Origin: Nitrososphaerota archaeon
Lineage (GTDB): Archaea; Thermoproteota; Bathyarchaeia; Bathyarchaeales; Bathycorpusculaceae
Length of the DNA: 37,864 bases
Direction of reading: 5' to 3'
Assembly: GCA_031274765.1 (NCBI GenBank)
Contig: JAISPR010000095.1
Span: 1-37,864, forward strand
The position numbers and the translations under genes were made by a program. Shown here one piece after another: positions 34,226 to 37,498 of this stretch (within the stretch, counting starts at the first letter, position 1; each line of letters begins with the position of its first letter). The notes beneath the pieces are model-generated. The model made no database searches and was not told where the DNA came from. It worked only from the letters and a program-made list of their open reading frames with translations.

Positions 34226-35527
34226 GTGCAAGGGTTTATGATAACAAACGACACAACAACGCTACTAAAAGAGTTCATTAACAAAAACTCTAATACCGCC
34301 GATGTCCAATGGGACAACCGCACAATCCCCCAACTACGCTTTAACCCCTACACCACAAACCAAGAAGAACGCCAAACCGCAGCCCACTACTTTCTAATGG
34401 CCGCCTCAATCCTTGACGACACCATCATAGGATACCCCGAAAACGCCCGCATGCTACTAGTCCACCTAAACACCACCCTGGGCAAAAACCTCTTTGAAAT
34501 AAAAAAAGCCCACCTCTTTGAAGAAGCAATCAAAAAAACATATTTCTACCACGAACTAGGACCAAACAAAAAAGCCGCCGCAGAAAATCTCGCATCCGTC
34601 AACGCATTTGTTAAATTCAAAGCCGAACACAACCTCCTAAAATACGCACAAAACTTTAACAACCCAAAAACACTCCTCGAAAACCTCGCCAAAAACATTC
34701 CAGCCCTATCAGGACCCCACAAAGACCGCGCATGGATATATATGCGATGGATGGTTCGCCCATATCCAGATCTACAAATCTACAACCACCTCCACGCCAA
34801 AGACCTAAACGTGCCCCTAACCAAAGAAAACACCAACGTAGCCGCCTGCTTAGGCATAATAGCCACCGCCTCACCCGCACTATGGCGCGATGAACAAACC
34901 GCCACCAACGCCCGCCAAAAACTAACCGACTACGCCAAAACACTTTTCCCCCAAGACCCCGCCAAAATCGACTACCCCTTCTTCTTACTTGGCAGAACCC
35001 TAAAACAAAAACCCCTCACCCACCACACACTCAAAGCCGCCCTATACTTCTTAGAACATATGCAAAAAATTACAGGCCAACCCCAAACATACTACCAAAA
35101 AATGAGTCACTACAAAAGTGGATGGGAAAAAAGAACCGCACTCACCCTACTACGAATGCACATCCCATACGGCTATGAAACCATCAGTTTCCCTCTACCA
35201 AACGAAGTCTACACACCAGACTTTATTTTAGAAAAAACAATCCAAGGCAAAAAAATAATCTTGGAACCCCATTTTGAGATGACCAAACGACAAGCACGCA
35301 AATACGCACTCTTTAAACGCACCTACGGACATCAATTTCTACTCATCCTACTCCTCAAAAACGACCTTATCCCACTCTATCATCAACGAAAAATTCTAAC
35401 AGATGACGTCGCCGATGATGTATGGCCCATAGAATTCATACACCTCTTGGCAGAAAAAATTAAACGTGGCACATACAGACAAGAACCCACAGAACAAACA
35501 AACCATAACTCACACCCCAAAACATAA
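34226..35527 (+). CDS. Putative HhH-GPD/DUF2400-like domain fused to PD-(D/E)XK nuclease
   Basis: The 433-residue protein appears to have two DNA-processing domains. Residues about 50-265 resemble the HhH-GPD DNA glycosylase group, nearest to DUF2400: helices around FLMAASILDD, then DRAWIYMRWMVRPYP (174-181), KDLNVPLTKEN and a closing DYPFFLLGR. The conserved Asp of the glycosylase active site, expected after the VPL, is a Thr here. Residues about 296-400 look like a PD-(D/E)XK nuclease: SGWE301, YTPD332F, then IILE347PH, and a following FLLILLL strand, similar to VSR-type enzymes. The start is uncertain: GTG 34226 or ATG 34238, with a TATA-like GTTTTAAG near 34194. The coding strand is A+C-rich. 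Confidence 0.6.
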   Translation: MQGFMITNDTTTLLKEFINKNSNTADVQWDNRTIPQLRFNPYTTNQEERQTAAHYFLMAASILDDTIIGYPENARMLLVHLNTTLGKNLFEIKKAHLFEEAIKKTYFYHELGPNKKAAAENLASVNAFVKFKAEHNLLKYAQNFNNPKTLLENLAKNIPALSGPHKDRAWIYMRWMVRPYPDLQIYNHLHAKDLNVPLTKENTNVAACLGIIATASPALWRDEQTATNARQKLTDYAKTLFPQDPAKIDYPFFLLGRTLKQKPLTHHTLKAALYFLEHMQKITGQPQTYYQKMSHYKSGWEKRTALTLLRMHIPYGYETISFPLPNEVYTPDFILEKTIQGKKIILEPHFEMTKRQARKYALFKRTYGHQFLLILLLKNDLIPLYHQRKILTDDVADDVWPIEFIHLLAEKIKRGTYRQEPTEQTNHNSHPKT

Positions 35528-36695: not shown

Positions 36696-37085
36696 ATGAA
36701 CCCCACTCAATCAAACACATCACCCCCCATTGACTTTAAACCAAAGATTGTCTGGCTAATTCTCGATGGCACTCCCGAAATAGCCCTAAAACTGCTCGCC
36801 AAAAACTATCAAGTAACCACCCCACAACTCAAAGTTGGCATGCCAAAAAAACACAAACATAAAGCATATGCATGTTACACCGCAAAAAACCAAACCATAT
36901 ACGTATACAACAGTGACATACTAGTCAACCCATTTGTTATTCTCCACGAATTCTATCATCACCTCCGAAGCCGAGCAGTAGACAAAATCCACCGAGGCAC
37001 AGAATACCATGCAGACCAATTTGCCAAAGACTTTATTGAACAATACCAAAAAGTAACAAAACCACTACCATCCAGCAATCAGTAA
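36696..37085 (+). CDS. Small HExxH metalloprotease-like protein
   Basis: The 129-residue protein has a zincin signature HEFYHH at residues 84-89 (two His ligands and the catalytic Glu), and the E103-x-x-A-D107 region some 14 residues later could give the third ligand, as in ImmA/IrrE- or SprT-like small metallopeptidases. The N-terminal 75 residues show a beta-strand pattern (QTIYVYNSDIL) just before the helix, also typical. There is no signal peptide, so it is cytoplasmic. Its 3' end overlaps that of the convergent JAMM gene by seven bases. Substrate and partners are unknown. Confidence 0.7.
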   Translation: MNPTQSNTSPPIDFKPKIVWLILDGTPEIALKLLAKNYQVTTPQLKVGMPKKHKHKAYACYTAKNQTIYVYNSDILVNPFVILHEFYHHLRSRAVDKIHRGTEYHADQFAKDFIEQYQKVTKPLPSSNQ

Positions 37086-37498
37086 AAATCATCATCGTCA
37101 CATTTTAATGGTGCAGTTATTTCCAAAGATATCCTATCACCATTTGAATCATAGGCAGCTATACAATCATTACCACTATAGGGATAACCCACTATCATCA
37201 AAACGCGACCAAAAAAATAATTGAGATCAACATGGCTAGGTGAAATATTTCCAGAAGGATGAGAATGCACAGTACCAACTAGACTAAAGTCACCGGTAAA
37301 CATGTAGGGATTAAAGTGAACTTCCCCCTCGTTGTGAACTGCAAACGGAGCTAATACCAAATCAGTGATAGATATGACGCCTTTGCTTTTTTTACCCCTT
37401 AGTAACAAAAAGCTTTCTCGAGGATAGAGTTTTCTTGCACCTGCATAAATGGCATCTAAGAGGTTGCATGGGAGATGGATAGTAAGCGATTGAGGCAT
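37079..37498 (-). CDS. JAMM/MPN-domain metalloprotease
   Basis: A 139-residue stand-alone MPN+ protein. The JAMM zinc site is complete: E28 (RESF), H78 and H80 (VHSHPS), S88 and D91 (SPSHVD), as in Rpn11, AMSH and archaeal JAMM1, which cleave isopeptide or linear bonds of ubiquitin-like proteins. In archaea the expected substrates are SAMP-type conjugates; no SAMP, E1 or proteasome gene is in the window, so this is knowledge from the family. The acidic tail (CDDDDFY) is unusual. The start is the ATG at 37498. It converges with the HExxH protease gene. Confidence 0.88.
   Translation of the reverse strand: MPQSLTIHLPCNLLDAIYAGARKLYPRESFLLLRGKKSKGVISITDLVLAPFAVHNEGEVHFNPYMFTGDFSLVGTVHSHPSGNISPSHVDLNYFFGRVLMIVGYPYSGNDCIAAYDSNGDRISLEITAPLKCDDDDFY

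Follow-up and report, generated by a model that had tools for sequence, protein, structure and literature searches.

What is the function of an archaeal protein that joins the fold of a DNA glycosylase to a nuclease? Such a protein is encoded in the window (the whole 37,864-nucleotide stretch analysed here), which belongs to a Bathyarchaeia genome; the named organisms closest to it are Candidatus Bathycorpusculum and related bins. An earlier note on this DNA had read the protein as a base-sensing domain coupled to a nuclease, and as either a repair enzyme or a modification-dependent defence nuclease. All the motifs that it quoted are present, in the N-terminal part (MRWMVRP at residues 173-179, VPLT at 196-199, LLGR at 254-257) as well as in the C-terminal part (SGWE at 298-301, YTPDF at 329-333, ILEPH at 345-349). 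The domain architecture is firm; the mechanism, comprising base recognition without excision, nuclease activity, coupling of the two domains and a role in repair, is what we infer.

The glycosylase-fold domain and its replaced catalytic residues

The gene and the features of its N-terminal part, with residue counts taken over 39 distinct homologues, are:

34226..35527, forward strand: whole gene, 433 amino acids, an open reading frame with GTG as listed start and ATG 34238 as likely true start; dN/dS over the full length 0.08-0.20
34226..35074, forward strand: all-helical glycosylase-fold domain, residues 1-283; AlphaFold2 pLDDT mostly 70-90, best Foldseek matches Pa-AGOG and OGG2
34622..34993, forward strand: match to DUF2400 (PF09674), residues 133-256; 41.7 bits against a cut-off of 25, E 1.8e-10
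34724..34726, forward strand: codon 167 (Asp), where DUF2400 and AGOG have their catalytic Lys; D, N, H, S, A or G in homologues, never Lys
34820..34822, forward strand: codon 199 (Thr), site of the catalytic Asp; Thr in 38/39 homologues, Asn in 1/39
34970..34972, forward strand: codon 249 (Asp), invariant, putative counterpart by spacing of AGOG D208, which contacts the flipped guanine

The ATG is preferred as the start because most homologues begin at the methionine of codon 5, and the low dN/dS confirms a real coding gene. An N-terminal region of the HhH-GPD/DUF2400 type had been proposed from motifs, and this proposal stands: PF09674 is matched above its cut-off, and the comparison with AGOG structures that had been suggested places the N-terminal domain of the AlphaFold2 model (full-length protein, built from 23 homologues) nearest to the AGOG and OGG2 8-oxoguanine glycosylases. 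The best Foldseek matches were Pa-AGOG, the OGG2 enzymes of Thermotoga and Methanocaldococcus, the queuine-salvage enzyme DUF2419 and OGG1, with a probability of about 1.00 for the first of these (Pa-AGOG and OGG2) but E above 0.001; EndoIII-3 and MutY, which are other HhH-GPD folds, were also matched at high probability and E above 0.001. Neither the N-terminal nor the C-terminal model gave a Foldseek match with E below 0.001, and a single-sequence search of the PDB with the protein returned nothing usable. Against TIGR02757, a hypothetical equivalog, the protein scored 39.6 bits, under the cut-off of 139.2.

The window protein shares the signatures RW..R, PDL and DP..D with DUF2400/TIGR02757 proteins, from which it differs in having both catalytic-type residues replaced and a nuclease attached. 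Aligned with DUF2400 proteins from Bacteroides phages, Prevotella and archaea, the canonical motif K-R-x6-R-W..R...PDLG.W...PLD becomes D167-R168...R174-W175..R178..PDL...PLT199 in the window family. The distance from residue 167 to residue 199 is 32 residues, and 32-33 in canonical DUF2400 proteins as counted on the alignment. The replacement of the catalytic Asp by Thr, which had been suspected from the single sequence, is real and conserved; loss of the catalytic Lys at residue 167 had been overlooked. In the alignment, the window protein lacks both the GPD Asp of active HhH-GPD glycosylases and the Lys of bifunctional ones.

AGOG can be compared at these positions. Its catalytic pair, K140 and D172 (PMC9638937), has a spacing of 32 residues (31 in some members). 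Substitution of the Asp (D172N/Q) leaves no activity, and K142Q AGOG in crystals still binds and flips 8-oxoguanine (PMC9638937). R174, D249 and F253 are conserved in homologues of the window protein and would correspond to AGOG K149, D208 and W212, which hold the flipped base. AGOG is the top fold match, with the same separation of the catalytic positions, a pocket Asp and an aromatic residue four positions on; it differs in keeping the Lys and Asp, in lacking a nuclease and in showing no significant sequence match. We infer the residue mapping from spacing and fold, as no significant alignment was obtained between the profiles of AGOG and DUF2400. The AGOG profile itself (PF09171) has no match in the window's own genome or its relatives, and has matches in 57 of 200 genomes of the phylum.

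A nuclease domain related to T7 endonuclease I

The features of the C-terminal part are:

35096..35464, forward strand: T7 endonuclease I-like PD-(D/E)XK domain, residues 291-413; PHROG_945, PDB profile matches, hhalign and domain model
35126..35128, forward strand: E301 (E20 of T7 endonuclease I), invariant in 39/39
35177..35179, forward strand: E318 (invariant Glu in the second strand of T7 endonuclease I), invariant in 39/39
35219..35221, forward strand: D332 (D55 of T7 endonuclease I, the Asp of PD), invariant in 39/39
35264..35272, forward strand: E347-P-H349, the (D/E)XK half-motif with His for Lys (T7 E65 and K67); H in 38/39, R in 1/39
35300..35302, forward strand: K359, invariant, in the following helix twelve residues after the Glu, matching K77 of T7 endonuclease I; may stand in for the missing Lys

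A C-terminal domain of PD-(D/E)XK type with conserved motifs had been claimed, and the invariant acidic residues bear this out; Y329, P331 and E347 are likewise identical in all 39 distinct homologues. The proposed resemblance to VSR needs correction, as T7 endonuclease I is nearer by sequence. Pfam gave a weak match to Phage_endo_I (PF05367) from residue 291 (15.2-17.6 bits against a cut-off of 29.1), and the family profile matched the T7 endonuclease I structures 2pfj, 1fzr and 1m0d in the PDB (E 0.006-0.04). Among PHROGs, the endonuclease family PHROG_945 was found at E 2.3e-8 and a Holliday-junction resolvase family at 6e-4, and tblastn in phages matched endonuclease I genes with weak E-values. 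For Vsr, Pfam returned no match in the C-terminal domain at E up to 10, and Vsr was rejected as the parent of the nuclease.

Profile alignment with the T7-type enzymes (hhalign probability 98.5) places SGWE, YE, YTPDF and E347 on T7-type invariants, which are S17, E20, E37, Y52, P54, D55, E65, K67 and G68. His349 falls on K67, and K359 falls on a Lys kept by most T7-type enzymes. The window protein thus shares with PF05367 the motifs SGxE, YE and YTPDF, the Glu of EXK, the Lys twelve residues after that Glu, and counterparts of E20, D55 and E65. It differs in carrying EXH in place of EXK, in scoring under the Pfam cut-off, in being joined to a glycosylase-fold domain and in the conserved C-terminal tail of its family (DDVWPIEF). 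Vsr is a member of the same superfamily, and its half-motif, FxH, also has His at the Lys position (PMC551604), but the window nuclease keeps the Glu of EXK and its overall motif order fits T7 endonuclease I. Elsewhere among PD-(D/E)XK enzymes the Lys has been replaced by Glu, Gln or Asn, and in COG4636 it has migrated into a helix (PMC551604). One homologue of the second clade described below (L160, 1802-3109) has LEPR for LEPH, so the Lys position of the nuclease stays basic. The exchange of His for Lys could nevertheless leave cleavage reduced or absent.

In the full-length AlphaFold2 model the C-terminal part is poor. Modelled alone, the domain shows the PD-(D/E)XK order of elements at pLDDT 74, with the other four models below 52. 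Foldseek matched this model to Can2, Bax1, VC1899 and restriction enzymes at E-values that are not strong, and T7 endonuclease I itself was absent from the best 50 matches.

Distribution, selection and origin

Purifying selection is strongest on the nuclease domain: among pairs with unsaturated sites, dN/dS was 0.017-0.061 for the C-terminal domain and 0.11-0.31 for the N-terminal domain. The gene is present in 31 of 32 genomes of one Bathyarchaeia genus. A second clade, about 35% identical, occurs in seven genomes of the genus, three of which have this clade only. Other genera of the family carry the gene in a few cases, and most are missing it.

The survey of homologues and their surroundings that had been recommended, which also revealed the invariant acidic residues, shows loci that are stable and have no recognised defence genes. 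The gene has a small number of stable settings. One clade has it beside an HExxH-like gene and a JAB gene; in another it adjoins secY and an EMC3/TMCO1-like gene. At four loci (L051, L055, L049 and L047) it lies in opposite orientation between the latter two, inside a ribosomal-protein/Sec cluster. In the window, the first arrangement comprises, downstream, a 129-residue HEFYHH (zinc-protease-like) protein with no Pfam family above cut-off (36696-37085, forward strand) and a JAB protein (37079-37498, reverse strand), whose genes overlap tail to tail. This pair adjoins the DUF2400-nuclease gene in many loci of one clade and of one clade only, and an obligate partnership was rejected. PADLOC gave no model match and no defence genes were recognised among the neighbours, leaving a defence island unsupported. 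The profile of the fused protein found no relatives in viral contigs, and no full-length match was found in phages or plasmids; the idea that the fused protein came from a mobile element or virus was accordingly set aside. Nearly all genomes that carry the gene also encode Hjc and NucS, so it does not stand in for either of these. Nor does it replace a missing glycosylase, as EndoIII, AlkA-like and OGG1-like genes (names that reflect our reading of the sequences) are present in the genus; AGOG is absent.

The closest relatives that keep both Lys and Asp are nuclease-less DUF2400 proteins in two genomes of a sister genus (G185 and G544); the one placed in the tree diverges immediately outside the fused clade, with support of 98/95. 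Within the limits of a tree that rests on 91 columns, the branch on which Lys and Asp were lost appears also to be the one on which the nuclease was gained. In both of these genomes the nuclease-less DUF2400 is spread over two overlapping frames with the same break point (L148, 2674-3487; L159, 1300-2150), representing a split gene, a decayed gene or a frameshift.

Other archaeal DUF2400 proteins of 411-463 residues (L062, L139 and L141; L142 and L143; and ApPV1_gp05) also carry, behind their DUF2400 domain, a PD-(D/E)XK-like segment that was identified by eye through its motifs. Unlike the window protein, they keep the Lys (and most the Asp) and have an FeS-type Cys cluster, and their nuclease motifs are different: VEVE in L139, L141 and L062, AEAK in L142 and L143, and VEVK in ApPV1_gp05. 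The two Thermoproteota proteins (L142, 934-2271; L143, 1246-2637) keep the Lys and have Gly for Asp (VPLGTE), a Cys cluster and a C-terminal RPDFF...AEAK segment. ApPV1_gp05 is a hypothetical protein of Archaeoglobus profundus pleomorphic provirus 1, a pleolipovirus-like provirus (L108, 2482-3741; BK065154.1), and matches DUF2400 at E 6e-30. It keeps Lys and Asp together with a CxxC cluster and a VEVK nuclease-like segment, and is a viral version of the DUF2400-nuclease architecture. Bacteroides and Parabacteroides phages also carry DUF2400 genes (L106, 2551-3303; L107, 2653-3801; L109, 1530-2270), near genes of DNA metabolism that encode a methyltransferase and RecN-like and RuvC-like proteins.

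A probable role in repair, and its alternatives

We favour, at a probability of about 0.5, the view that Bathyarchaeia have here a chromosomal endonuclease for the repair or maintenance of DNA, which would read a base without excising it and cut nearby with its predicted nuclease. The DUF2400 domain retains the HhH glycosylase fold and base-pocket positions, and its most likely action is to bend DNA and to flip or probe an abnormal base; excision is not expected because the nucleophilic Lys and the catalytic Asp are both lost. The T7 endonuclease I-like domain would then cut the backbone near the recognised site, probably in a metal-dependent manner through E301, E318, D332 and E347, with His349 or Lys359 in the role of the usual Lys. 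The repair genes with which the genus is already equipped (EndoIII, AlkA-like, OGG1-like, NucS and Hjc) count against this reading. For the base sensor coupled to a nuclease that the earlier note had envisaged, the fold, the lost catalytic residues and the conserved nuclease residues all speak in favour, and the coupling itself is plausible. Of its two suggested roles, repair is favoured over restriction, because the gene is near-universal in the genus, occupies stable chromosomal sites and has no defence neighbours.

The kinship of the nuclease with T7 endonuclease I and phage Holliday-junction resolvases, and the presence among its structural neighbours of Bax1, which cuts forked DNA with XPB, would also suit an enzyme that resolves Holliday junctions or forks, with DUF2400 as an added DNA-binding platform only. 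We consider this rather unlikely, as Hjc in nearly all the same genomes leaves nothing to be replaced and the base-pocket positions of the DUF2400 domain are still conserved. Furthermore, T7 endonuclease I acts as a domain-swapped dimer. Defence against viruses or plasmids with altered bases, triggered by modification or damage, is improbable: vertical, near-universal inheritance in one genus, stable loci, silence from PADLOC and the lack of viral relatives of the fused profile all count against it, despite the suggestive fusion of a glycosylase-fold sensor to a PD-(D/E)XK nuclease and the DUF2400 proteins of Bacteroides phages and the Archaeoglobus provirus.

Slightly harder still to credit is a DUF2400 domain that remains an active glycosylase or lyase of unusual mechanism (using, for example, Thr199, Asp167 or the nearby Lys166), with the nuclease completing the incision. 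Lys166 is found in 32/39 homologues and the N-terminal domain is under purifying selection, but the other homologues do without this Lys, its place is shifted by one residue from the catalytic register, and Thr occupies the place of an Asp whose substitution inactivates AGOG (D172N/Q; PMC9638937). Least credible is a structural DNA-binding factor with both domains catalytically dead. The glycosylase Lys and Asp and the nuclease Lys have all been replaced, yet a dead nuclease would be unexpected, because its acidic residues are invariant over two paralogous clades and it is the domain under the strongest purifying selection.

Returning to the repair endonuclease, we propose more tentatively that a glycosylase fold stripped of its chemistry recognises a damaged base and guides the fused PD-EXH domain to incise beside the lesion, which would be removed without base excision, and that fusions of a DUF2400 reader with a PD-(D/E)XK nuclease arose on more than one occasion in archaea. 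In the literature searched, mostly of non-subscription journals, we found no functional study of DUF2400, with one incidental mention, and none for TIGR02757.

The gene probably codes for a repair enzyme that is little known, and not for a defence against viruses. DUF2400 proteins are widespread, and their fusions in archaea suggest a family that reads bases in DNA and acts together with nucleases. If loss of the Lys and Asp marks a switch from excision to sensing, the window protein offers a testable case of a glycosylase fold serving as the targeting part of a nuclease and, if true, may represent an incision pathway in uncultured Bathyarchaeia.
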